Position numbers and translations under genes: made by a program. The notes beneath the pieces were generated by a model. That model did not search any database and was not told where the DNA came from. It saw nothing but the letters and a program-made list of their open reading frames with translations. This document shows, in pieces, positions 6 through 56,983 of a DNA stretch of 64,000 nucleotides; within the stretch, counting starts at the first letter, position 1, and each line of letters opens with the position of its first letter. The DNA is from Malachius bipustulatus (taxonomy: Eukaryota; Arthropoda; Insecta; Coleoptera; Melyridae), in assembly GCA_910589415.1 (NCBI GenBank), contig OU342631.1:61718598-61782597 (forward strand), written 5' to 3'.

Positions 6-1412
6 ATGACAACAAGAGGAAAAAGAGACACCAACCCGCAAAAGCAAGGCGCTTCGGCGCCCCCAGCAAACAAGATGTCCGGCAACGGCAAGGAGCCGGA
101 CAAATCTAAGACCATCAACGACCTCAACGAAAAGGAGTTGCGCCATTTTATCTCGCAAACGATAGGGCACCTACGAGCGAAATTCAACACAGACTACGAC
201 CCCACCCCAAGCACCAGAGAAACGCCAGGAAAAACAGAGGATGGTTTCACGCTGTTAATGAAAAATAAAAGAAGGAAAATCAGCGAAACAGAGCCGCAAA
301 ACCCCACAGCTGTGGAAAACAGATTCGCAGCCCTCGGAACCGAGGAAATGGAGATCACACACGACCAAGACAGCGACGGCGAAGACATCACCGAAACAGA
401 AACCGAAGAAAAAACCCGAAAAGCGACAAGCCCAAAAAGACATCCACTGAAACCACCCAGCCAACAACCGAGAACACAAATGCCGAAAAAAGAGAGAATC
501 CCGCCGATCATCATCAGGGAAAAAACAAAATGGTCGACTATCGCCAAGACCCTCAACGTAAATCGGATTAATTACGAAAGAGCGAAACTCATCGCAACAG
601 GAATTCAGGTTGAACCGACGAGCGAAAACGACTACAGGGCGTTGTTCAAGCTGTTGAAAACAAAAAACGTGCAGTTCCATACCTTCGAGCTGAAGAGCGA
701 GAAAAAACTTAAAGTGGTGATCAGAGGAATCCCACAAGAAAACACCGAGGAAGAAATTAAAGAAGACCTCGAAGAACAAGGCTACCCAACCGCAAAAATC
801 ACCAGGATGAAGGGACGCGACGGTGAACCCGCCCCCCTCGCCCTCATAGAACTCGAAAAGGACTACAAATCGATATACAATATTACAAGGTGCTGCGGAA
901 TTACGATCGTAGTGGAGCCGTTAAGAATAAAACGTGATATAATACAGTGCCACAAGTGCCAGCTGTTCGGGCATGCTCAGAAGAGCTGCCACAGTGAGTA
1001 CAAGTGCATGAAGTGCGGTGAGTGTCATTCGACACACGAGTGCAAGAAACCAACAACAACGCCACCAAAGTGCGCCAACTGCAACGGGCCCCATCTGTCG
1101 ATATACAGAAACTGCCCGAAAAACCCAAATAACAAGCCCAAAGAAGCCCCAAAACCATTGCCACCACCAGATCCGAAAATATGGGCCAAGAAAGCCGAGG
1201 AGCGGCGCAACGAGAGCCAACCAACAACCAAACCACAACAGCCGCAAAAGGCGGCCCCAAGACCCCAAACAGCGGCAAAAGAAGACGAGCTCCACAGGTG
1301 TCTAGGGAAGATGCTCGCAAGTTTCATCGAAACGAAAGCAACCCAACCCCAAATCGAGTCGTTTATCTACGAAACGAAGACGCTCATCAACCTCTTCAAA
1401 AAGACCCACTAA
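6..1412 (+). CDS. LINE ORF1, gag-like nucleic-acid-binding protein
   Basis: 468 aa starting at the first ATG after the 5' UTR. The first ~180 residues are polar, low-complexity and rich in K, E, T and P. A PRE_C2HC-type region (about 205-290, including the VVIRGIP motif) is followed by three CCHC-like knuckles at about 313-372: CHKCQLFGHAQKSC, then CMKCGECHSTHEC, then CANCNGPHLSIYRNC. In Jockey elements this protein binds the element RNA. The C-terminal tail is rich in P, Q and K. No stop or frameshift is visible. Its last ~107 nt overlap the open ORF2 frame. Confidence 0.88.
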   Translation: MTTRGKRDTNPQKQGASAPPANKMSGNGKEPDKSKTINDLNEKELRHFISQTIGHLRAKFNTDYDPTPSTRETPGKTEDGFTLLMKNKRRKISETEPQNPTAVENRFAALGTEEMEITHDQDSDGEDITETETEEKTRKATSPKRHPLKPPSQQPRTQMPKKERIPPIIIREKTKWSTIAKTLNVNRINYERAKLIATGIQVEPTSENDYRALFKLLKTKNVQFHTFELKSEKKLKVVIRGIPQENTEEEIKEDLEEQGYPTAKITRMKGRDGEPAPLALIELEKDYKSIYNITRCCGITIVVEPLRIKRDIIQCHKCQLFGHAQKSCHSEYKCMKCGECHSTHECKKPTTTPPKCANCNGPHLSIYRNCPKNPNNKPKEAPKPLPPPDPKIWAKKAEERRNESQPTTKPQQPQKAAPRPQTAAKEDELHRCLGKMLASFIETKATQPQIESFIYETKTLINLFKKTH

Positions 1413-1422
1413 GACGGCCAGC

Positions 1423-4128
1423 TTGAAAAAGACGAGTTTCAGCATCGGATACTGGAACGCAAACTCCATCAACAACAAGAAGAGCGAATTGAAGATGTTC
1501 CTCTCCAAACACAAGATCGACATTATGCTCCTTGGAGAAACCCACCTGAAACCGTCAAAATCGCTGAGAATCCCCAACTACTCCGTCCTGAGAAAAGACC
1601 GCCACACCACGGAAGGAGGAGGAGTAGCAATCATGATCAAGAACGGAATAACCTACCAGCAAATCCCCGACCTAGAGACGACACACACCGAAACGACAGG
1701 GATGGAATTCCAGACGCAGAGAGGACCAATCAGGATCTTCTCAGGATACCTCCCCCCGAAAAGCAGACACGCCAAGCAAGAATTGGAGAAAATATTCAAC
1801 AGCCACAAAACCACAATCCTGGCAGGAGACTTGAACTCCAAGAATAGGACATGGAACTCCAAAGTCAACAACACCAACGGGCGAAGACTCTACGAGCTCG
1901 CCCACGAGCTAAACCTCACAGTGACAGCCCCCACGGAGCCGACATACCTCCCCACGATGGATGTCCTAGACATCGCGGTCATGAAAAACATGCCCTACAA
2001 CTACACGATCGAGACACAGCAAGAGCTCAGCTCTGACCACCTGCCAGTGATCCTGACAGTGAAAGCGGAATGCAAGCTGAGAGACCAAGAAAGAAAAGTC
2101 ACCGACTGGAACAAGTACAGATCGGTCCTGAAAGTCCCAGACATCAGAATCACCCAAGCCGACGACATACAAGAAGCGGCGCAGCAGCTCGAGGCAGCCA
2201 TCAGCGCGGCGATCGCCGAATCAACAAAAACTAGAAAAATAGCGGAAACAACGAAAATCCCAAAAGACCTGGAAAAGAAGATCGAAAAGAAGAGGCAACT
2301 CATCAGAGAATACAAGGTGACCCTCGACCCGGCAACAAAAAGAGAGATAAACAAACTCACCAACGACATCAAAGGAAAGATAAATGATCACTACAACCAA
2401 ATTTGGGAAGACAAGTTAGAGCGACTCAACACCGAAGACCTCAGCCTTTGGCAGATGGCCAAAGCAATCAAAGGAGGAGGAAACAAAGCGAGACTGCCCC
2501 CACTCAAAACCGGAAACAAAACCATCCACCTAACAGAAGACAAGGCCGAAGCGTTCGCAGACCAGCTAGAAGAACAGTTCAAGCCAAACAAGGCGGCAGC
2601 GAAAAACGCAAAGCTCACGCAAACGGTAGAAACCGTAACAGAGGTCACGACCAGTGACGACCCACCGATCAGAGAAACCAATCACGACGAGATCAAAGAA
2701 ATCCTGAAGGACCTGAAAAACAGAAAGGCACCGGGAGGTGACAAGATTACAAACCCGGCCCTGAAAAACCTCAACGAAGAAGGCATACGAGAAATCGTGA
2801 AAATCACCAACGCCATCCTACTCAAAAAGACATACCCCCAACATTGGAAAACCGCGGAGATCATCATGATCCCGAAGCCCGGAAAACCAAGAAGCGACCC
2901 AAAGAGCTACAGACCCATAAGCCTGCTCCCAGCCCTGAGCAAGGTAGTGGAAAGAGTCATCCTGAAGAGGATCCAAGAGGAAACGGAGAGACTCAACGTC
3001 ATCCCCGACCACCAGTTCGGATTCAGAGGCCAGCACTCTGCAGTCCACCAAATAGTGAGAATCACTCAACACGTGAGCAACTACCTCAATAGATCCATCT
3101 CAACAGGCGCCATCTTCCTTGACATCGAGAAGGCCTTCGACAAGGTCTGGCACCAAGGCCTGATTTACAAGATGAGACAATTCGGCATCAACGACAACCT
3201 AACATCCCTAATCAGAGACTACCTAAGAGAGAGACAATACTACACGAAAATCGAAGACATCAAATCCACGACAAGGAGGATAGAAGCCGGAGTCCCCCAA
3301 GGCTCCGTGATCGGCCCAACCCTCTACAACATATTCACAGCCGACCTCCCCAAACCCAAACGATGCGAAATAGCCCAATTCGCAGACGACACGGCGATCT
3401 ACTTTTCCAACGGGAAACCCAAGATCGTGAGAAAAGCCATCCAAACCGACTTAGATCAACTGACCAAATGGTTCGAAAAATGGCGAATCAAAGTCAACGA
3501 AGCAAAGACAACAGGAATCTACTTCAGAGACAACACCCGAGGAGCGAGACCGAAACCGGAAGGAATAAAGATCAACGGGACGCAGATCAACTGGCAAAGA
3601 GAGGCCAAATACCTAGGAGTGATCCTGGACCAATGGTTCAGCTTCTCAAAACAAGCCAAGAAGATCCAAAAGACAATCAAACAAGTAATCGGGACGCTCT
3701 ACCCCCTGATCGGCGGAAAAAGCAAAATGAGCCCGGAAAATAAGATCAAAATTATTAAAACCATGTTGATCCCAATCGCAACCTACGCTGGAACGACCTG
3801 GCAAGGATGCCCAGAATCCTACAGGTCGGGCGCGCAGAGCGCAATCAACAAAGCCGCCAGGACGGCAGTCAACGCGCCCTGGTTCGTGACAAACGAACAA
3901 ATCAGGGACGAAACGGGGCTCGAAGAGCTGAGAGACATCATCGCGAGGCAGACCCTCAGACTGGTGAAAACAATGGAAGACCACGACAACCCAACGGTGA
4001 GACAAGCCATACAGGAGACAAACCATGGAAACGGAAAGAGACACGACATCTTCAGCGTAAAAAGATATGCCGAAGAACAAGGAATCGAGATAAACCCGAA
4101 AAGGAAAAAGACACGTCAACCACAGTGA
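1423..4128 (+). CDS. LINE ORF2, endonuclease-reverse transcriptase
   Basis: About 901 codons. The N-terminal ~230 residues are an exonuclease/endonuclease/phosphatase fold: GYWNANSI, then LLGETHL, GGGVAIMI, LAGDLNSKN and SSDHLPVIL. The reverse transcriptase follows, with SYRPISLLPALSK, AFDKVW, GVPQGSVIGP and the catalytic AQFADDTAIYF near residue 650. No RNase H follows. Coordinates begin at a TTG; the frame is open ~107 nt further upstream, overlapping ORF1 in the +1 frame, with no ATG before position 1495, which would already cut the endonuclease. Translation may therefore use reinitiation or frameshifting after ORF1. The protein nicks target DNA and copies element RNA. Confidence 0.9.
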   Translation: MKKTSFSIGYWNANSINNKKSELKMFLSKHKIDIMLLGETHLKPSKSLRIPNYSVLRKDRHTTEGGGVAIMIKNGITYQQIPDLETTHTETTGMEFQTQRGPIRIFSGYLPPKSRHAKQELEKIFNSHKTTILAGDLNSKNRTWNSKVNNTNGRRLYELAHELNLTVTAPTEPTYLPTMDVLDIAVMKNMPYNYTIETQQELSSDHLPVILTVKAECKLRDQERKVTDWNKYRSVLKVPDIRITQADDIQEAAQQLEAAISAAIAESTKTRKIAETTKIPKDLEKKIEKKRQLIREYKVTLDPATKREINKLTNDIKGKINDHYNQIWEDKLERLNTEDLSLWQMAKAIKGGGNKARLPPLKTGNKTIHLTEDKAEAFADQLEEQFKPNKAAAKNAKLTQTVETVTEVTTSDDPPIRETNHDEIKEILKDLKNRKAPGGDKITNPALKNLNEEGIREIVKITNAILLKKTYPQHWKTAEIIMIPKPGKPRSDPKSYRPISLLPALSKVVERVILKRIQEETERLNVIPDHQFGFRGQHSAVHQIVRITQHVSNYLNRSISTGAIFLDIEKAFDKVWHQGLIYKMRQFGINDNLTSLIRDYLRERQYYTKIEDIKSTTRRIEAGVPQGSVIGPTLYNIFTADLPKPKRCEIAQFADDTAIYFSNGKPKIVRKAIQTDLDQLTKWFEKWRIKVNEAKTTGIYFRDNTRGARPKPEGIKINGTQINWQREAKYLGVILDQWFSFSKQAKKIQKTIKQVIGTLYPLIGGKSKMSPENKIKIIKTMLIPIATYAGTTWQGCPESYRSGAQSAINKAARTAVNAPWFVTNEQIRDETGLEELRDIIARQTLRLVKTMEDHDNPTVRQAIQETNHGNGKRHDIFSVKRYAEEQGIEINPKRKKTRQPQ

Positions 4129-4189: not shown

Positions 4190-4470
4190 AGTGAAACCCA
4201 CTTCAAAACCAAAAAGTGACAGCGGAAACTTAGTGAAGTGCCGCGAAAAAAAAAAACCAACCCCGAAGTGACAGAGACACTCAAACCAAAAGTGACAGTG
4301 GCAACTCAGTGAAGTGCCGCGAAAACAACAAACCCCGAAGTGACGGAGACACTCGAAGCAAAAGTGACAGTGGCAACTCAGTGAAGTGCCGTGAAAACAA
4401 ACCCCGAAGTGACAGAGACACTCGAAGTGACAGTGACCACTCAGTGAAGTGAAGTGAAATAAACAGCGAG
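4190..4470 (+). repeat. Minisatellite in LINE 3' UTR
   Basis: About 3-4 imperfect copies of a ~70-75-bp unit containing AGTGACAGAGACACTC, GTGACAGTGGCAACTCAG and GAAGTGCCGCGAAAAC. It lies between the ORF2 stop and the tail-less 3' end of the element; the same array recurs in copy 2 at 27690-27965. Confidence 0.8.
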
Positions 4471-24920: not shown

Positions 24921-27626
24921 TTGAAAAAGACGAGTTTCAGCATCGGATACTGGAACGCAAACTCCATCAACAACAAGAAGAGCGAATTGAAGATGTTCCT
25001 CTCCAAACACAAGATCGACATCATGCTCCTTGGAGAAACCCACCTGAAACCGTCAAAATCGCTGAGAATCCCCAACTACTCCGTCCTGAGAAAAGACCGC
25101 CACACCACGGAAGGAGGAGGAGTAGCAATCATGATCAAAAACGGAATAACCTACCACCAAATCCCCGACATAGAGACGACACACACGGAAACGACAGGGA
25201 TGGAATTCTAGACGCCGAGAGGACCAATCAGGATCTTCTCAGGATACCTCCCCCCGAAAAGCAGACACGCCAAGCAAGAATTGGAGAAAATGTTCAACAG
25301 CCACAAAACCACAATCCTGGCAGGAGACTTGAACTCCAAGAATAGGACATGGAACTCCAAAGCCAACAATACCAACGGGCGAAGACTCTACGAGATCGCC
25401 CACGAGCTAAACCTCACAGTGACAGCCCCCACGGAGCCGACATACCTCCCCACGATGGACGTCCTAGACATCGCGGTCATGAAAAACATGCCCTACAACT
25501 ACACGATCGAGACACAGCAAGAGCTCAGCTCCGACCACCTGCCAGTGATCCTGACAGTGAAAGCGGAATGCGAGCTGAGAGACCAAGAAAGAAAAGTCAC
25601 CGACTGGAACAAGTACAGATCGGTCCTGAAAGTCCCAGATACCAGAATCACCCAAACCGACGACATACAAGAAGCGGCGCAGCAGCTCGAGGCAGCCATC
25701 AGCGCGGCGATCGCCGAATCCACAAAAACGAGAAAAATAGCGGAAATAACGAAAATCCCAAAAGACCTGGAAAAGAAGATCGAAAAGAAGAGGCAACTCA
25801 TCAGAGAATACAAGGTGACCCTCGACCCGGCAACAAAAAGGGAGATAAACAAACTCACCAACGACATCAAAGGAAAGACAAAAGATCACTACAACCAAAT
25901 TTGGGAAGACAAGTTAGAGCGACTCAATACCGAAGACCTCAGCCTTTGGCAGATGGCCAAAGCAATCAAAGGAGGAGGAAACAAAGCGAGACTGCCCCCA
26001 CTCAAAACCGGAAACAAAACCTTCCACCTAACAGAAGACAAGGCCGAAGCGTTCGCAGACCAGCTAGAAGAACAGTTCAAGCCAAACAAGGCGGCAGCGA
26101 AAAATGCAAAGCTCACGCAAACGGTAGAAACCGTAACAAAGGTCACGACCAGCGACGACCCACCGATCAGAGAAACCAACTACGACGAGATCAAAGAAAT
26201 CCTGAAGAACCTGAAAAACAGGAAGGCACCGGGAGGCGACAAGATTACAAACCCGGCCCTGAAAAACCTCAACGAAGAAGGCACACGAGAAATCGTGAAA
26301 ATCACCAACGCCATCCTTCTCAAAAAGACATACCCCCGACATTGGAAAACCGCGGAGATCATCATGATCCCGAAGCCCGGAAAACCAAGAAACGACCCCA
26401 AGAGCTACAGACCCATAAGCCTGCTCCCAGCCCTGAGCAAGGTGGTGGAAAGAGTCATCCTGAAGAGGATCCAAGAAGAAACGGAGAGACTCAACGTCAT
26501 CCCCGACCACCAGTTCGGATTCAGAGGCCAGCACTCTGCAGTCCACCAAATAGTGAGAATCACTCAACACGTGAGCAACTACCTCAATAGATCCATCTCA
26601 ACAGGCGCCATCTTAATTGACATCGAGAAGGCCTTCGACAAGGTTTGGCATCAAGGCCTGATTTACAAGATGAGACAATTCGGCATCAACGACAACCTAA
26701 CATCCCTAATCAGCGACTACCTAAGAGAGAGACAATATTACACGAAAATCGAAGACATCAAATCCACGACAAGGAGGATAGAAGCCGGAGTCCCCCAAGG
26801 CTCCGTGATCGGCCCAACCCTCTACAACATATTCACAGCCGACCTCCCCAAACCCAAACGATGCGAAATAGCCCAATTCGCAGACGACACGGCAATCTAC
26901 TTTTCCAACGGGAAACCCAAGATCGTGAGAAAAGCCATCCAAACCGACTTAGACCAACTGACTAAATGGTTCGAAAAATGGCGAATCAAAGTCAACGAAG
27001 CAAAGACAACAGGAATCTACTTCAGAGACAACACCCGAGGAGCGAGACCGAAACCGGAAGGAATAAAGATCAACGGGACGCAGATCAACTGGCAAAGAGA
27101 GGCCAAATACCTAGGAGTCATCCTGGACCAATGGTTCAGCTTCTCAAAACAAGCCAAGAAGATCCAAAAGACAATCAAACAAGTAATCGGGACGCTCTAT
27201 CCCCTGATCGGCGGAAAAAGCAAAATGAGCCCGGAAAACAAGATCAAAATCATTAAAACCATGCTGATCCCAATCGCAACCTACGCTGGAACGACCTGGC
27301 AAGGATGCCCAGAATCCTACAGGTCGGGCGCGCAGAGCGCAATCAACAAAGCCGCCAGGACGGCAGTCAACGCGCCCTGGTTCGTGACAAACGAGCAAAT
27401 CAGGGACGAAACGGGGCTCGAAGAGCTGAGAGACATCATCGCGAGGCAGACCCTCAGACTGGTGAAAACAATGGAAGACCACGACAATCCAACAGTGAGA
27501 CAAGCCATACAGGAGACAAACCATGGAAACGGAAAAAGACACGACATCTTCAGCGTAAAAAGATATGCCGAAGAACAAGGAATCGAGATAAACCCGAAAA
27601 GGAAAAAGATACACCAACCACAGTGA
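24921..27626 (+). pseudogene. LINE copy 2 ORF2, broken by a nonsense codon
   Basis: Same endonuclease-RT protein as copy 1. A CAG to TAG change at 25209-25211, in the endonuclease after TGMEF, ends the frame; the same frame then continues open to 27626 with all RT motifs (AFDKVW, GVPQGSVIGP, FADDTAIYF). Overall divergence from copy 1 is a few percent, scattered. Confidence 0.9.
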
Positions 27627-27689: not shown

Positions 27690-27965
27690 CAAAAAGTGAA
27701 AACCACTCCCAAACCAAAAAGTGACAGCGGAAACTTAACGAAGTGCCGCGGAAAAACCAACCCCGAAGTGACAGAGACACTCAAACCAAAAGCGACAGTG
27801 GCAACTCAGTGAAGTGCCGTGAAAACAACAAACCCCGAAATGACAGAGACACTCGAGCAAAACCGAAAAGCGACAGTGGCAACTCAGTGAAGTGCCGTGA
27901 AAACAAACCCCGAAGTGACAAGAGACACTCAAAGTGACAGTAACCACTCAGTGAAGTGAAGCGAA
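27690..27965 (+). repeat. Minisatellite in LINE copy 2 3' UTR
   Basis: Same AGTGACAG / GAAGTGCCG repeat family as at 4190-4470, with small indels. Confidence 0.75.
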
Positions 27966-38166: not shown

Positions 38167-38331
38167 TTAGTGTATTTTTTGTTAAAAAATTTTTTGTTAA
38201 AAAATACACTATTGAGGACGACATCACTTTTCGAAAATCACCCAAACTCATCAAATGTCCATCGATCATGACCCCCAGATCACGAAAAAGTGGTTTTCCA
38301 AAATTCACCTGCCCACGATATTATATATATA
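38163..38331. other. Array-edge sequence with short palindrome
   Basis: TAGTGTATTTTTTGTT is followed shortly by an imperfect inverted copy (..AAAAAATACACTA) right at the break; then AT-rich sequence up to the MITE. Confidence 0.6.
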
Positions 38332-39224
38332 CAGTGCTTCCCAAAAGTAACGGATAAATTCGATAAAACGGAGAGGGCTGTTTTTTTGAAAAAATAAAAA
38401 AACAGGTCGATTTTGTTTTTGAGTTGTTCAACTTTTGACATAATATTTGGGTATACAGGGTGATGCGCGAAAAAGTGGTGACGTCATCGGCATTTTTTTA
38501 AATGGCAACCCTTATTTTTTATTCCATTTTTTGATACTTAATTTAATTGCCAGTATGGTAATGTAATCAATTTGTAACCTTAAATAAGGAAATTTCTGAG
38601 AAACAGCTTGTGAGTCGAAATTGTGCACTTTTTACTGATGTGAAAATCGGAACATTAACGATAAAAATAAAAAAATATCAAATAAAAATTACTGTTTCCA
38701 TGGTAATTTTATAAGATCTGTCTATTAAATTAATGCCCGTATTCACAAACGATAATTTCCTAAATAATTACGTAATCAATTATCCCCATCTCATTCTATT
38801 GCAAAAAAACTGCATATCTCCATCTCACTCATTGAATTAATTACGTAATTATTTAGGAAATTATCGTTTGTGAATACGGGCATCAGTCTATCAAATTGAA
38901 TCTGTTAAATTAAATTAAATTAAATCTATTAAATCTGTCGAAATTAAGTTATTTTCTCCGAAATTTCCTTTATAAACGTTACAAAATGATTACATTACCG
39001 TATTGGCAATTGGATGAAGTATCAAAAAATTTAATAAAAAATAAGAGTTGCCTTTTAAAAAAATGCCGATGACGTCACCACTTTTTCGTGCATCACCCTG
39101 TATACCCAAATATTATGTCAAAAGTTGAACAACTCAAAAACAAAATCGACCTGTTTTTTTATTTTTTCAAAAAAACAGCCCTCTCCGTTTTATCGAATTT
39201 ATCCGTTACTTTTGGGAAGCACTG
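38332..39224. mobile_element. Mariner-type MITE 1
   Basis: 893 bp with TIRs of about 250 bp beginning CAGTGCTTCCCAAAAGTAAC and flanked by TA on both sides. No transposase. Related to the element at 42786-43497. A smaller palindromic element is nested at 38733-38883. Confidence 0.85.
38733..38883. mobile_element. Nested 151-bp palindromic MITE
   Basis: Begins ATGCCCGTATTCACAAACGA and ends with its complement; the arms are ~45 bp. MITE 2 lacks it at the corresponding place (ATTAAATTAAGTCT), giving an empty-site control. Confidence 0.85.
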
Positions 39225-39309
39225 TATATATAAAGGAAATGATTATTGGGCTTTTTCTCTTAAAATGCACTCCACGGCAACCAGCAACAAAAATCCAAGC
39301 AGATCCGGA

Positions 39310-39356
39310 GCCACGGACAGCGCTGTTTCGGCCTTCTTTGGCCTCTTCAGCGTAGC
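39310..39356 (-). ncRNA. Hammerhead ribozyme motif, copy A
   Basis: Minus strand, 5' to 3': stem I GCUACG; core CUGAAGA; stem II GGCC, loop AAAGAA, GGCC; core GAA; stem III ACAGCGCUGU (palindromic); C17 in a GUC triplet; stem I return CGUGGC (one G-U pair). All invariant core bases of a type I hammerhead are present. Predicted to self-cleave after GUC. Confidence 0.85.
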
Positions 39357-39747
39357 ACACCGAGAACGCAAGGACAATGCTACCGAAAGCCATGGAATGC
39401 GCCAGTTCTATACAAATCAGAGGATTTTTACATCAGTGACCTGCAAGACAGAACGACTGCGACGACACCTACTGCTGGTGGTAAGAACCACCGACCATCA
39501 ACAGCAGACAATCGCCTTCGTGAGACAAGACTCCTCGTGCAGTTACCTGCTATGAGGATTTGACAAGTCCCTGGGGCAGCGCCAGCTAGTGGCCGGCAGC
39601 TCCCTTCACCATTAGCCTATGTAAATTAGAAGGATAAATAGAAATCTTTAGAGAGTAATTAATAAATATAAAGGAAATGATTATTGGGCTTTTTCTCTTA
39701 AAATGCACTCCACGGCAACCAGCAACAAAAATCCAAGCAGATCCGGA

Positions 39748-39794
39748 GCCACGGACAGCGCTGTTTCGGCCTTCTTTGGCCTCTTCAGCGTAGC
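39748..39794 (-). ncRNA. Hammerhead ribozyme motif, copy B
   Basis: Same 47 nt as copy A, exactly 438 bp away. Cleavage at A and B in one transcript would release a 438-nt monomer. Confidence 0.85.
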
Positions 39795-40236
39795 ACACCG
39801 AGAACGCAAGGACAATGCTACCGAAAGCCGTGTTTTGTTTTGTTTTGAAAGCCGTGCAACCGTTTTGTTGCTGGTTGCCGTGGAGTGCATTTTAAGAGAA
39901 AAAGCCCAATAATCATTTCCTTTATATTTATTAATTACTCTCTAAAGATTTCTATTTATCCTTCTAATTTACATGGGCTAATGGTGAAGGGAGCTGCCGG
40001 CCACTAGCTGGCGCTGCCCCGGGGACTTGTCAAATCCTCATAGCAGGTAACTGCACGAGGAGTCTTGTCTCACGAAGGCGATTGTCTGCTGTTGATGGTC
40101 GGTGGTTCTTACCACCAGCAGTAGGTGTCGTCGCAGTCGTTCTGTCTTGCAGGTCACTGATGTAAAAATCCTCTGATTTGTATAGAACTGGCGCATTCCA
40201 TGGCTTTCGGTAGCATTGTCCTTGCGTTCTCGGTGT

Positions 40237-40283
40237 GCTACGCTGAAGAGGCCAAAGAAGGCCGAAACAGCGCTGTCGGTGGC
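40237..40283 (+). ncRNA. Hammerhead ribozyme motif, copy C
   Basis: Same core, but the first stem I return base is G (GGUGGC instead of CGUGGC), giving a G-G clash next to the cleavage site; activity may be reduced. Confidence 0.75.
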
Positions 40284-40674
40284 TCCGGATCTGCTTGGAT
40301 TTTTGTTGCTGGTTGCCGTGGAGTGCATTTTAAGAGAAAAAGCCCAATAATCATTTCCTTTATATTTATTAATTACTCTCTAAAGATTTCTATTTATCCT
40401 TCTAATTTACATGGGCTAATGGTGAAGGGAGCTGCCGGCCACTAGCTGGCGCTGCCCCGGGGACTTGTCAAATCCTCATAGCAGGTAACTGCACGAGGAG
40501 TCTTGTCTCACGAAGGCGATTGTCTGCTGTTGATGGTCGGTGGTTCTTACCACCAGCAGTAGGTGTCGTCGCAGTCGTTCTGTCTTGCAGGTCACTGATG
40601 TAAAAATCCTCTGATTTGTATAGAACTGGCGCATTCCATGGCTTTCGGTAGCATTGTCCTTGCGTTCTCGGTGT

Positions 40675-40721
40675 GCTACGCTGAAGAGGCCAAAGAAGGC
40701 CGAAACAGCGCTGTCCGTGGC
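40675..40721 (+). ncRNA. Hammerhead ribozyme motif, copy D
   Basis: Identical to copies A and B, 438 bp after copy C. Confidence 0.85.
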
Positions 40722-40861
40722 TCCGGATCTGCTTGGATTTTTGTTGCTGGTTGCCGTGGAGTGCATTTTAAGAGAAAAAGCCCAATAATCATTTCCTTTA
40801 TATTTATTAATTACTCTCTAAAGATTTCTATTTATCCTTATATATATATATATATATATAT

Positions 40862-49046: not shown

Positions 49047-49058
49047 GAAAAATACTTC
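49047..49058. repeat. Right TSD of LINE B
   Basis: GAAAAATACTTC; the satellite monomer resumes immediately. Confidence 0.9.
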
Positions 49059-51342
49059 AAAGGATTCCCTATACATGGAGACCAGTGGCGTTCCGGAATT
49101 ATTGGGGGTTGAGCGGGAAACAAAGCAGAAAAATCCCCTACATTTAAAAAATTTACAACTTCCACGCACAATATTGAGTCAGCGAAGCTATGGCAGGGAA
49201 AAATACTTCAAAGAATTCCCTATCCACAGAGACCAGTGGCGTTCCGAAATTATTGGGGGATGAGCGGGAAACAAAAAATATCCCATACAGTTAAAAAATT
49301 TACAGCTTCCACGCACAACATTGAGTCAGCGAAGCTATGGCAGAGAAAAATATTTCAAAGGATTTCCTACTCCTGGAGACCAGTGGCGTTTCGGAATTAT
49401 TGGGGGTTGAGCGAGAAACAAAAAAAAATCCCCTACATTTAAAAAAATCACAGCTTCCACGCATAACATTTAGTCAGCGAAGCTATGGCAGGGAAAAATA
49501 TTTCAAAGGATTTCCTACTAATGGAGACCAGTGGCGTTCCGAAATTATTGGGGGTAGAGCGAGAAACAAAAAAAAAATCCCCTACATTTAAAAAATTCAC
49601 AGCTTCCACGCACAACATTGAGTCAGCGAAGCTATGGCAGGGAAAAATATTTCAAAGGATTTCCTACTCATGGAGACCAGTGGCGTTCCGAAATTATTGG
49701 GGGTTGAGCGGGAAACAAAACAAAAAAATCCCCTACATTTAAAAAATTTACAACTTCCACGTACAACATTGAGTCAGCGAAGCTATGGCAGGGAAAAATA
49801 CTTCAAAGGATTCCCTATCCACAGAGACCAATGGCGTTCCGAAATTATTGGGGGATGAGCGGGAAACAAAAAATATCCCCTACAGTTAAAAAATTTACAG
49901 CTTCCACGCACAACATTGAGTCAGCAAAGCTATGGCAGGGAAAAATATTTAAAAGGATTTCCTACTCATGGAGACCAGTGGCGTTCCGAAATTATTGGGG
50001 GTAGAGCGTGAAACAAAAAAAATCCCCTACATTTAAAAAATTCACAGCTTCCACGCACAACATTGAGTCAGCAAAGCTATGGCAGGGAAAAATATTTAAA
50101 AGAATTTCCTACTAATGGAGACCAGTGGCGTTCCGAAATTATTGGGGGTAGAGCGAGAAACAAAAAAAAATCCCCTACATTTAAAAAATTCACAGCTTCC
50201 ACGCACAACATTGAGTCAGCAAAGCTATGGCAGGGAAAAATATTTCAAAGGATTTCCTACTCATGGAGACCAGTGGCGTTCCGAAATTATTGAGGGTTGA
50301 GCGAGAAACAAAAAAAAATACCCTACATTTAAAAAATTCACATCTTCCACGCATAACATTGAATCAGCGAAGCTATGGCAGGGAAAAATATTTCAAAGGA
50401 TTCCCTATACATGGAGACCAGTGGCGTTCCGGAATTATTGGGGGTTGAGCGGGAAACAAAACAGAAAAATCCCCTACATTTAAAAAATTTACAACTTCCA
50501 CGCACAACATTGAGTCAGCGAAGCTATGGCAGGGAAAAATACTTCAAAGGATTCCCTATCCACGGAGACCAGTGGCGTTCCGAAATTATTGGGGGATGAG
50601 CGGGAAACAAAAAATATCCCCTACAGTTAAAAAATTTACAGCTTCCACGCACAACATTGAGTCAGCAAAGCTATGGCAGGGAAAAATATTTCAAAGGATT
50701 TCCTACTCATGGAGACCAGTGGCGTTCCGGAATTATTGGGGGTTGAGCGAGAAACAAAAAAAATCCCCTACATTTAAAAAATTCACAGCTTCCACGCATA
50801 ACATTGAGTCAGCGAAGCTATGGCAGGGAAAAATATTTCAAAGGATTCCCTATACATGGAGACCAGTGGCGTTCCGGAGTTATTGGGGGTTGAGCGGGAA
50901 ACAAAACAGAAAAATCCCCTACATTTAAAAAATTTACAACTTCCACGCACAACATTGAGTCAGCGAAGCTATGGCAGGGAAAAATACTTCAAAGGATTCC
51001 CTATCCACAGAGACCAGTGGCGTTCCGAAATTATTGGGGGATGAGCGGGAAACAAAAAATATCCCCTACAGTTAAAAAATTTACAGCTTCCACGCACAAC
51101 ATTGAGTTAGCGAAGCTATGGCAGGGAAAAATATTTCAAAGGATTTCCTACTCCTGGAGACCAGTGGCGTTCCGGAATTATTGGGGGTTGAGCGAGAAAC
51201 AAAAAAAATCCCCTACATTTAAAAAATTCACAGCTTCCACGCACAACATTGAGTCAGCGAAGCTATGGCAGGGAAAAATATTTCAAAGGATTTCCTACTC
51301 ATGGAGACCAGTGGCGTTCCGAAATTATTGGGGGTTGAGCGG

Positions 51343-53599: not shown

Positions 53600-54934
53600 T
53601 TACATATTATTGCATTTTTCGGATCGACTTAAAATTTCCTCCAGCGTGTACGAAACAGGAAATTGGAAATTTATTTCCTCTATGTCGTTGATTTCTTTGT
53701 ATTTTTCAATCATTTCATGCATCTCCTTCAGTCCGTAATACTTAAGAATTATTTGTTTGTTTATAAATCCAACCAATACATAGCAAATAAACTTAGGGTC
53801 ATCAATTTTGCAATATTTTGCAATATTTTGGTAGATGTTCGTCGCGGTATTAAATTCGATGAATTCTGTTGAATAATCCCATTTGAGGTGTTTTTCGGGT
53901 TCGTCCGTTATGAAAAATCGACGACTTTCTTCAGAGTTATGCCTGTCAGCGTATATATGATGCAAATCTTCTTTAAAATGCAAAACGACAAATCTGCATT
54001 CTATTTGAGAGAGCGTCAAATAGTCGCTCTTTGACTTGTAGAGATCATCTCCAAAAAGTTGACACAATTTGCAAGTAAATACAAAGTCGGGTTGTTTTAC
54101 ATCGTCAATTGATAGTGTTTTTTCCAAAGAGGAGCATTTAAAGTGAACCCATCTAGAACAAACAGAACACTGAATGTAGTACTCTTGACTATCTTGACCA
54201 CAGTCAAGACATCGATGGTACACAGGTTCAGACGCCAGAAGAAGAATGTTTTGAATTTCCAAGCGAAAACTTTCAGGATCAAAAATTTTCATGGGGGGGA
54301 AGTCAGCGACATCGTTCAGATCAGATAAAATGAATATATAAAAAATTAGATATACTCCGCAATTCACGTTGTCGTCTTGCCGAGGATAGTCCAATATTTT
54401 CGAAGAAATAGTCCACTTTCGAATATTCAGTTTATCGTCTGCTTGTATTCGATCTCTTATGACGAAGAAGTTTTTTATTTTTCGGAAAATAAAGTCGGTA
54501 TTTATTGGATAATTTCTGCTGGGGTTGAGAATATGTATGGTTTTATTCTTCAAATATAGAACTATCAACACCCAGTGTATTCCCCGATCATTGTATGGCA
54601 GTATAATAAAGTCTACGTCATCAAGTGGTTTACTGTAAGGCAAAAATTTTTTCAAATCCTTCGCTTGGTCTTGAAATAAAATATGGGTTGAAATGGTGTC
54701 GATGTAATAGATATGTTTGCTCTCTTTCAAAATTGAGAATGCTGCTGCATCAATGCAATAATCAGAGAGCCATCTGTCTTGATCTTTAAGCTCATGACCA
54801 GTTTTGTTTTTAATAGAAGTTAGTGTTTTGAAATCAGAGCTACGTAAGAATATGGTGTTGTCGTCATTTCTATATAATCCTAATGTAAAATTACATTTCA
54901 ATGCTGAAGATATATATAAATTGTTGTCAAAAAA
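53600..54934 (-). CDS. Ulp1-type cysteine protease with PHD finger (downstream part of transposase frame)
   Basis: 433 aa from a TTG at 54901; no ATG, because the frame continues upstream to the transposase stop at 54935-54937. The C48/Ulp1-like core shows H109 (GIHW), N126 in HILNPSR where Asp is usual, Q175 and C181 (RQDDNVNCGVY). The PHD-type finger follows: C231, C234, C245, C248, H253, C256, C277 and C280. Ulp1-like proteases cleave SUMO-type conjugates; such domains are known as passengers in some DNA transposons. The C-terminal ~150 residues are not recognised. Confidence 0.75.
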   Translation of the reverse strand, partial: FFDNNLYISSALKCNFTLGLYRNDDNTIFLRSSDFKTLTSIKNKTGHELKDQDRWLSDYCIDAAAFSILKESKHIYYIDTISTHILFQDQAKDLKKFLPYSKPLDDVDFIILPYNDRGIHWVLIVLYLKNKTIHILNPSRNYPINTDFIFRKIKNFFVIRDRIQADDKLNIRKWTISSKILDYPRQDDNVNCGVYLIFYIFILSDLNDVADFPPMKIFDPESFRLEIQNILLLASEPVYHRCLDCGQDSQEYYIQCSVCSRWVHFKCSSLEKTLSIDDVKQPDFVFTCKLCQLFGDDLYKSKSDYLTLSQIECRFVVLHFKEDLHHIYADRHNSEESRRFFITDEPEKHLKWDYSTEFIEFNTATNIYQNIAKYCKIDDPKFICYVLVGFINKQIILKYYGLKEMHEMIEKYKEINDIEEINFQFPVSYTLEEILSRSEKCNNM

Positions 54935-56926
54935 TTAACCATTTTTTAAAGCGCGTCCATCCGGACGATCAACATTTGACCCTTCTTCAGATTTTGTTTC
55001 ACTTGAACTTTTAATCCCTTCTGCTGCAAAAGTGTTCTCAAAGACGTCTTGCTTATTATCATTACAAACATTTATGTCTGAGGAAGATTTATGTAGGTCG
55101 TCCTTTATGTCCTCTGTAAATATTTTCAAGTATTTCTTGTATAAAAAACCCTGCGCCTTCTTCCGTTTCATCCATCCTTCCACTTTTTGTGGGTCATCAA
55201 TTTCCTTTGACTTTTTCTTTTTTGGCACTGCCCCTATTTCCAAGTCGATAGCCTTTAAGTTGGTTTTTATTCTATTTTCTAATGCTGAAACGAACCTACC
55301 CACTTTCAGATTTGTTTGCCCTCCAAGAATCTCTTTTTTGACGATCTTAAACCACGACTCGGCATTTGCGTTGCTAAAGCGGCCAGCATTTAAAATGTCA
55401 GTCCATAAAGGAACGAACGGCATCAAACGTTTGAGCAGATACATTGCCAAAGCTTCACACTTGAAAGGATTCCTATCGCAAGAAGATTTTTCAACGCATT
55501 CCGATGTTGTTATAAGAGACACTTTATCATACGATCTATAGAAAAATATAAAAAAGGGAGAGGTTATGTAGGTGCCTCTAACAGTTTCATCGTCATCACG
55601 ATCCTCGTCATAAAAATCATCTTTCTCTTCCCTTAGACTTAAAAATGTTTCAGTTTTATCGTAGCAGTTTGACGACAATTCTGTTAACGCTCTTTCGACG
55701 TTTTCATCATGAAAAGAACTAAGCAAAAGAAAAAGAATGTTTTCAAATTGAAAATCGAGCTCCTCCAATGACGTACATTGCAATAAAACCGCTATAGAGT
55801 CAACGAGTATGTTTCTAACTTTTTTGTCGACTTTCAGTGTGGACAGTTTCCTGCAGACCATTTTTATAAAATGAGCGCAGCAACATTTTATAGTTACGCA
55901 AGACTCCAAACTAAAATCTGACAAACAGTTGGTGACATATTTGAAACATATCTTAAGGTAAGTGTACAAGGTCATGTCGTTGAAAGCGTTGCATACAGAT
56001 GTTATTAGGGCAAAACTCCAATCCGTCACGATAATTCTAAATATTGGCCAAGTCTTAAAGCAGCTGACGGTTACGAAATGCCTAAACTTCAAAAGGAAAC
56101 TTGCTATGGTTGCGGAATCATGCTTCGAACTTATTAGCTCAGCTATGGGTGTCAACTTTCCACCGACATTCACAACTAAGGAGTAATATAATATTCGAGA
56201 GCCTTTCTCATATGATGTTGTTCGGACAACAGAACCTGTAGCATCGAAATATGCCACAACTTTTTTTCCTTTTCCCGTCAGCATCTTCACTTGATCTTTT
56301 GAATACAAGTACACCAAAGTCTTGCCATCTGGAAACTGAATGTACTTGTCTGCATCAGGTTTTTCTACGGACTTCAAAAGAAGATCAAAAGAGGGATCTC
56401 TGTGTAAATCATTTTGTGACAACGCTTCCGACCTGACTTTTTGATAAACAGGCAGAGATCGCAGAGTTTGCCAATTTCCATCGATAAATACTTTTTCGTC
56501 AATTTTGTCAATGTCCTTACACCGGACAATTATTTTGTAAGTTTGGCAATCTGTCTGTTTACAAATTGCGTACTCCACGATCGACTTTCCACATAGCTTC
56601 ATTTTTTTATTGTATCTGAAACCTTTCAAAACTAACAAACAAGAAATATCTCTCTTCTCTAGTTCCTTTTTCATTAGATTTCTCCTATTTTCAGAATTTT
56701 CAAAAATATCTGAATTTTCAACAAAACGTTCCACCTTTAGAGATATTAACAAATTGAAACGTTTGATATTTTTAATTTTTTCTTCAGTATCGAAGAAAGG
56801 AACACATGGTGTTTTTATTGAATTGGAATCATCGCTGAATTCAGCTTCTCTCTCTGGTTTCAGAATGTTCAAAATTGTGTGAGGAAAAATTTCATCACAT
56901 TGAAGATTATCAACGGTATGAACCAC
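54935..56926 (-). CDS. MULE-type transposase-like protein
   Basis: 663 aa. Catalytic-type acidic residues are D228 (AYFDATG), D302 (IIVTDWS) and E523 (NANAESWF), with a CCAHF motif (C349-H352) between D2 and E like the C/D-H motif of Mutator-like transposases. The C-terminal part is basic (PKKKKSKEI). The frame opens at a GTG with no in-frame ATG and runs back to about 56983, so the true start may be in an upstream exon or lost. A TAA (54935-54937) separates it from the protease-PHD frame. Assignment to MULE/NOF-like elements is by motif only. Confidence 0.65.
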   Translation of the reverse strand: MVHTVDNLQCDEIFPHTILNILKPEREAEFSDDSNSIKTPCVPFFDTEEKIKNIKRFNLLISLKVERFVENSDIFENSENRRNLMKKELEKRDISCLLVLKGFRYNKKMKLCGKSIVEYAICKQTDCQTYKIIVRCKDIDKIDEKVFIDGNWQTLRSLPVYQKVRSEALSQNDLHRDPSFDLLLKSVEKPDADKYIQFPDGKTLVYLYSKDQVKMLTGKGKKVVAYFDATGSVVRTTSYEKGSRILYYSLVVNVGGKLTPIAELISSKHDSATIASFLLKFRHFVTVSCFKTWPIFRIIVTDWSFALITSVCNAFNDMTLYTYLKICFKYVTNCLSDFSLESCVTIKCCCAHFIKMVCRKLSTLKVDKKVRNILVDSIAVLLQCTSLEELDFQFENILFLLLSSFHDENVERALTELSSNCYDKTETFLSLREEKDDFYDEDRDDDETVRGTYITSPFFIFFYRSYDKVSLITTSECVEKSSCDRNPFKCEALAMYLLKRLMPFVPLWTDILNAGRFSNANAESWFKIVKKEILGGQTNLKVGRFVSALENRIKTNLKAIDLEIGAVPKKKKSKEIDDPQKVEGWMKRKKAQGFLYKKYLKIFTEDIKDDLHKSSSDINVCNDNKQDVFENTFAAEGIKSSSETKSEEGSNVDRPDGRALKNG

Positions 56927-56983
56927 AACTTCGACAGAAAGAGTATTGCTTCTTTTTTCTGGTAAAATATCCCAACCAGCAAA

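Follow-up and report, generated by a model that had tools for sequence, protein, structure and literature searches.

A dispersed 438-nt hammerhead retrozyme in the beetle Malachius bipustulatus: head-to-head inserts with two fixed ends point to mobilisation by Penelope-like machinery

Which elements move animal retrozymes is an open question in the literature, and the accessible parts of the relevant papers name Penelope-like elements only as candidates. PMC7229834, which defines metazoan retrozymes, treats them as a strong candidate beside LINEs, PMC7761336 lists Penelope-like and Terminon elements as likely candidates, and PMC11722881 names either LINEs or Penelope-like elements and proposes that retrozymes may themselves be reduced Penelope-like elements. 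According to the accessible text of PMC3846280, Penelope inserts are most often arranged head-to-head, one inverted end being extended by a 31-bp tail, the target duplications (8–10 bp) are not always present, and microhomology is found. In that of PMC11167929, a Penelope-like protein cuts and extends both target strands, prefers AT-rich DNA and starts at two adjacent internal RNA sites, which explains the tail; the hammerhead cuts only when the protein is added, and cleavage is not needed for insertion in vitro. A further insect system, pDo500 of cave crickets (PMC2837043, accessible part), is a repeat of ~500 bp with one hammerhead per unit, for which single and double forms were proposed. 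Our literature search, which covered mainly freely accessible papers, found no report of two-site or head-to-head retrozyme inserts.

The window, i.e. the whole 64,000-nucleotide stretch analysed here (C2:61718598-61782597, from a searched genome of 544 Mb in 52 contigs), carries a retrozyme insert at 39225-40842 that consists of two inverted arrays separated by a 30-bp filler. The arrays lie head-to-head with their sense 3' ends facing outward, are 99% complementary to each other and are built of unit copies that are 98–100% identical. The features are as follows, with A and B denoting the two RNA positions at which inserts of this family end.

39225..39832, minus strand (sense = minus): left array of 1.4 units, each 438 bp; its outer 3' end (sense strand) lies at ~91 of the monomer, which is site A blurred by TATA
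39833..39862: filler, 30 bp, at the head-to-head (5'-5') junction
39863..40842, plus strand (sense = plus): right array of 2.2 units; its outer 3' end (sense strand) lies at ~124-127 of the monomer, which is site B
40278..40715, plus strand: monomer between two predicted cleavage sites, 438 nt, GC 47.9%
39310..39356, minus strand: hammerhead ribozyme, Rfam Hammerhead_1 25.0 bits
39748..39794, minus strand: hammerhead ribozyme, Rfam Hammerhead_1 25.0 bits
40237..40283, plus strand: hammerhead ribozyme in which the nucleotide directly after the cleavage site is G instead of C; predicted cleavage 40277/40278
40675..40721, plus strand: hammerhead ribozyme, complete; predicted cleavage between 40715 and 40716
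40341..40346, plus strand: AGCCCA, monomer 64-69, putative 5' strand of a helix enclosing both start sites
40363, plus strand: internal copy of site A (monomer ~86), putative reverse transcription start for one DNA strand
40401, plus strand: internal copy of site B (monomer ~124), putative reverse transcription start for the other strand
40411..40417, plus strand: ATGGGCT, monomer 134-140, whose TGGGCT is the putative 3' strand of the helix
40839..40863: (TA)n tract to the right of the insert, taken as the target; the left side also adjoins TATATA
38324..39232: short neighbouring element with perfect terminal inverted repeats of 33 bp, whose end shares this TA tract

The earlier note on this DNA had placed the array at 39225..40838; its start stands, the end is corrected to 40842, and the filler between the arrays is added. 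The insertion site is (TA)n, a repeat that masks any target duplication of this particular insert. Three frames of at least 110 amino acids overlap the insert; they have no Pfam match, including none to reverse transcriptase (RT) or GIY-YIG domains. Searches of phages and plasmids with the insert gave no match, and a tRNA scan of the window was empty. We take the short element at 38324-39232 to be Tc1/mariner-like; its end sequence also flanks a Penelope-like insert elsewhere in the genome (L098).

The core of a type I hammerhead is CUGANGA ... GAA ... UH with three helices. In the insert, the copies read GCUACG-CUGAAGA-GGCC-AAAGAA-GGCC-GAA-ACAGCGCUGU-C-CGUGGC, and the core with its three helices is complete in all four of them, in agreement with the earlier claim that every invariant base is present. 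The four 47-nt segments and their exact 438-bp spacing within each of two inverted pairs, likewise described from the letters alone, were borne out. The closing of every copy by GCUACG/CGUGGC holds generally, except that the G for C in the copy at 40237 removes one stem I pair. In a 2-kb Rfam search, the two minus-strand copies matched Hammerhead_1 at 25.0 bits (E = 0.0033; gathering threshold 34) and the plus-strand copies matched HH9 at 21.7 and 16.2 bits (gathering threshold 52); no hammerhead reached the gathering threshold (34 bits, RF00163) in the window or in 13 further loci of the 438-bp family. The earlier note had named two observations that together would speak against a ribozyme, and the first of these, the lack of an Rfam hit above threshold, is what the search gave (25.0 versus 34 bits). 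The exact hammerhead pattern was absent from the viral_contigs and genome_contigs searches.

A search of the genome with the unit, in which 40 of 79 candidate regions were scored, gave at least 185 matches among those listed; these were grouped into 40 loci, i.e. the window and 39 others, all of which were mapped. Locus counts are therefore lower bounds: at least 40 retrozyme loci on nine contigs (the best 40 of 79 candidate regions), with at least 39 mapped loci beyond the window. Identity to the window unit ranges from ~80 to 100% across the mapped loci, so that both older and very young copies are represented, and one locus (L074) reaches the length of ~12 units. The non-coding 438-bp unit, with one hammerhead each, lies inside the 150–450 bp repeat range given for metazoan retrozymes in the accessible text of PMC7229834, while its 438 nt are just above the RNA sizes of 170–400 nt given there. 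Tandem arrangement, a type I hammerhead, GC content below 50% (47.9%), dispersal in multiple copies, a highly self-paired RNA (the predicted fold of the circular 438-mer has -157.2 kcal/mol versus -127.3 +/- 6.1 for 100 shuffles; z = -4.9), co-existing Penelope-like elements and duplications of >4 bp at most of the two-ended loci tested are further points of agreement. The identification as a retrozyme made from the letters is thus well supported, and the element belongs to a known kind. It differs from the retrozymes of that paper, whose accessible text has no such description, in its head-to-head inserts with two fixed 3' ends. It also differs from pDo500, a satellite DNA that makes up ~5% of one genome according to the part of PMC2837043 at hand, in that the inserts are small, dispersed and often head-to-head.

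Inverted copies are present in 27 of the 40 mapped loci, and all 27 are head-to-head with the sense 3' ends outward. Their strand-switch junctions are all different, by which an origin of the copies by segmental duplication was rejected, and show short overlaps or filler. The outer ends, placed by blastn and by a stricter local alignment covering positions 21-150, are fixed at two points of the RNA, A at ~86 and B at ~124, which are about 38 nt apart. By the stricter alignment, 63 of 67 outer ends fall in the zones 76-101 (A) or 116-136 (B), which were drawn after the data had been seen; one of the 63, the right end of L043, is put at 434 by blastn. Both ends could be assigned at 24 loci, and 23 of these pair an A end with a B end (binomial probability of 23 or more under independent choice, 1.5e-6); the sole exception is L046, with A on both sides. 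Two of the 23, L055 and L076, appear as B/B by the looser blastn, because it ran into TA repeats, and as A/B by both the stricter alignment and a check of the letters; counting them against the pattern leaves 21 of 24 (1.4e-4). In the letter check, the stretch CTAAAGATTTC between the two sites was found at none of 30 A ends and at 31 of 33 B ends, the exceptions being L066 (an indel) and L050. Because L050, scored as B by position, lacks the between-site stretch, it is an A end. In three of the 27 head-to-head loci (L042, L043, and L044), one of the ends lies at another position. Of the 13 one-directional loci, eight end at B, four at A (including L050) and one elsewhere (L054).

Many of the targets are (TA)n tracts and the others are AT-rich. 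An alignment artefact caused by (TA)n was rejected as the source of the fixed ends, since L039, L048, L051, L068, and L075 are without clean (TA)n and have the same two ends. Flanking repeats were sought at 12 loci of the 438-bp family. The eight two-ended loci outside clean (TA)n have repeats of 15 (L039), 13 (L040), 4 (L046), 8 (L048), 11 (L051), 14 (L068), 6 (L073), and 12 bp (L075), i.e. target duplications of 8–15 bp at six of the eight, several of them consisting of A and T only; random pairs gave repeats of at least 8 bp in 32 of 2000 cases. Repeats at L042, L049, L059, and L064 measure 2–6 bp, and no convincing flanking repeats were found at the one-directional loci tested.

A second retrozyme family shows the same anatomy with other distances. 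Most of the strong hammerheads in the genome (58.7 bits, top 60.1; best 74 of 73,468 candidates) repeat at ~320 bp, and their score is above the Rfam gathering threshold, unlike that of the 438-bp family. This family is much larger (1087 candidate regions, 40 of them scored); examples are L078-L082 and C1:2205734-2207013. Five further loci, four of which were chosen for divergent hammerheads, are all head-to-head, with ends at 79-83 and 225-229 and flanking repeats of 12–17 bp; four other loci run in one direction only; they end at 78, 229, 78, and 224 and have flanking repeats of 5–8 bp. The two sites of the 320-bp family are therefore ~150 nt apart rather than 35–40.

A genome search for GIY-YIG domains (best 150 of 775 candidates) revealed Penelope-like elements; many form tandem or head-to-head arrays, in which the open frames are 823–855 amino acids long. 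The long tandem arrays have a period of ~3325 bp (C11:3382-82839 and C3:53638699-53655512), and a strand switch lies inside the array on C11. One family, here called family 1 (L088), encodes RT and GIY-YIG domains. Its outer ends fall at two sites ~40 nt apart and adjoin (TA)n, and some of them lie in a dispersed repeat with (TA)n that is also found beside retrozymes. When the genome was searched with a stretch across site A of family 1, 40 matches were obtained; in all six head-to-head inserts that could be paired, one end is at A and the other past A. The ends that stop at A do so at positions 176-182 of the 191-nt query, the far end was read at B in three of the six (L085, L096, and L098), and the A-side end at C13 (L097), judged by its letters, falls short of A by up to 14 nt. 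A Rfam search of L088 found no hammerhead at E values up to 1; a CTGATGA ... CGAAACG motif was noticed in it by eye only.

Mobilisation of the retrozyme by Penelope-like machinery is strongly supported by this insertion anatomy. Head-to-head inserts with a 30–40 bp tail at one end (23 of 24 loci, or 21 of 24 if L055 and L076 count against it), 3' ends 35–40 nt apart, short target duplications, AT-rich targets, junctions with microhomology or filler and the presence of a hammerhead are shared with the Penelope-like elements that have inverted pseudo-LTRs and a 30–40 bp tail, as described in the accessible parts of PMC3846280 and PMC11167929, and the same anatomy and target recur in a resident Penelope-like element, although in one family only. 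The window insert is probably a young, dispersed, non-autonomous 438-nt retrozyme that is mobilised by Penelope machinery, which would prime the two DNA strands from separate RNA sites. Such elements were already known, with descriptions from corals, mussels and axolotl, and Penelope was suspected of moving them; what is new is an insertion signature that ties a retrozyme to a Penelope-like enzyme and implies one start site per DNA strand. This signature, two fixed ends with one per strand, can be counted directly in the genome and is common to two retrozyme families and a Penelope-like element.

The two kinds of element also share a short paired motif. AGCCCA of the retrozyme has its last base 17 nt upstream of A, and a spacer of 9 nt lies between B and ATGGGCT; the corresponding distances are 16 and 8 nt in the Penelope-like element, where ATGGGTT stands at the start of the frame. 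In both, the AGCCCA and TGGGYT strands are able to pair, and in the retrozyme a helix of AGCCCA with TGGGCT would enclose both start sites. Random placements were as good in 819 of 459,900 cases for the shared words only and in 66 of 1,379,262 when pairing was included, figures that are only a guide because the motif was noticed before the test. AGCCC and ATGGG are retained in three older copies of the retrozyme (L049, L068, and L073), and one window copy has TAGGCT for TGGGCT (ATAGG). The motif was not seen by eye in the 320-bp family and is therefore not general. Two-site ends and a common motif would also be expected if the retrozyme were a reduced Penelope-like element, an origin proposed in the accessible text of PMC11722881, having inherited both features rather than come to mimic them. 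We regard this as possible but rather doubtful, since beyond the short motif there is no alignable sequence: blastn of the 438-bp unit against the 12 Penelope-like loci compared gave no match. The retrozyme also differs from Penelope-like elements in being 438 nt long and in encoding no recognised protein. The earlier suggestion of a Penelope-derived element accordingly gains no support from sequence comparison, whereas a Penelope-mobilised one does from the insertion anatomy. The reading as a reduced element differs from mobilisation of an unrelated retrozyme in origin only, not in how the element would work.

Variation among the ribozyme copies bears on whether the hammerhead still matters. 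Of 118 hammerhead matches in the 40 loci, four without coverage of the motif were dropped, and 81 of the remaining 114 are identical over 81 nt (copies within one array are not independent). In an alignment of the 25 distinct 54-nt variants, all from related copies, 96.6% of 325 cells pair, compared with 23–32% when the strands are slid. Three cells are compensatory, and at one position of stem II the pair is C-G in 21 variants, U-A in three, and U-G in one. The covariation score was reached by 5 of 500 shuffles, and the count of pairs with two-sided change (one) by 260 of 500. The core position N7 varies freely (A, U or G); three of the 25 variants alter another core base and are probably dead. 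The hammerhead varies in the manner of a ribozyme, and this, together with the recurrence of the unit at 39 further mapped loci, makes it more than a chance resemblance.

Energy calculations predict that a single motif folds as an inactive hairpin (-17.7 kcal/mol versus -13.3 for the hammerhead), in which CUG of the core pairs with stem III, and the ribozyme sits in this inactive hairpin within the predicted fold of the circular 438-mer as well. For two motifs, the minimum-energy dimer is a double hammerhead whose stem III has 10 bp (-46.1 kcal/mol, a value with no concentration term), which lends computational support to the action as dimers proposed earlier. The accessible text of PMC7229834 states that most metazoan circles leave the ribozyme free to fold, whereas here the lone ribozyme is predicted to be self-locked; an active dimer and a locked single ribozyme may explain why self-cleavage would leave the circle closed. 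The inactive single-motif fold, the Rfam score of only 25 bits and the insertion in vitro without hammerhead cleavage in the accessible part of PMC11167929 could be taken to mean that the hammerhead is a non-functional relic and the element a Penelope-mobilised SINE for which the ribozyme no longer matters. We consider this unlikely: the 81 of 114 identical copies, the C-G to U-A changes in stem II with N7 as the freely varying core position, and a unit length that equals the ribozyme spacing exactly, as expected of copies derived from circles, all argue against a relic.

Mobilisation by a LINE, with target-primed reverse transcription and frequent twin priming as the source of the inverted copies, is slightly less likely still. 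LINE frames do occur in the window, and (TA)n beside many ends is readable as a repeat tail. Twin priming is expected to give a contiguous break, as at L042, where the break is at 214/215 and which looks like ordinary twin priming. It should, however, fix one end only, and here both are fixed, one per side, at 23 of 24 loci and again at all five further 320-bp loci; loci without (TA)n flanks keep the same ends and have no poly-A, and the resident Penelope-like element has the same anatomy. That the insert is hammerhead satellite DNA of the ordinary kind, with unequal crossing-over or DNA circles as its means of spread and recombination as the source of the inversions, is highly improbable. The tandem 438-bp units and the ~12 units' length at L074 would fit it, but dispersal on nine contigs, a junction of its own in each inverted insert, no convergent inversion among 27, the fixed ends and the target duplications (often present) contradict it.

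Under Penelope-like mobilisation, the cycle may run as follows. Tandem retrozyme copies would be transcribed, and two neighbouring hammerheads would pair through their palindromic stem III into a double hammerhead, which would cut the transcript into 438-nt units. These would be ligated into circles, in which the lone hammerhead would fold as the inactive hairpin. A resident Penelope-like protein would bind the circle through the region with sites A and B and cut a (TA)n or AT-rich target on both strands. Reverse transcription would then begin on either strand, with A as the start of one cDNA and B as that of the other. Synthesis would go round the circle one or more times, and the two cDNA ends would then be joined 5' to 5' by microhomology or filler. 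The signature names an RNA region for tests and also suggests how one protein may serve both target strands. On balance, we lean towards a more general model, which casts metazoan retrozymes as minimal RNA parasites that exploit Penelope-like elements: a landing pad, i.e. a helix enclosing two reverse transcription start sites, would lead the Penelope protein to prime the two strands of a single target from separate sites of a circular template, and different families (438 and 320 bp) would imitate different Penelope families.

Elsewhere in the window, two long plus-strand frames were found at 1306-4128, with RT and endonuclease matches in Pfam, and at 25212-27626. Both are followed by similar tandem repeats of 71–78 bp (4212-4427 and 27704-27933) and by a histone 3' stem-loop (5133 and 28639). 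These frames are probably LINE copies inside a histone gene array and possibly part of a repeated block. The window also contains a histone H1 frame; named proteins among the 120 matches listed for it are mostly from beetles (Tenebrio, Leptinotarsa, Dastarcus, Diorhabda, Harmonia, Diabrotica, and Coccinella among them), with one from a hemipteran. A satellite array with periods of 147, 298, and 445 bp occupies 49047-51342, and two long minus-strand frames lie at 53600-56983, one of which has matches to Ulp1 protease and, weakly, to a PHD finger.
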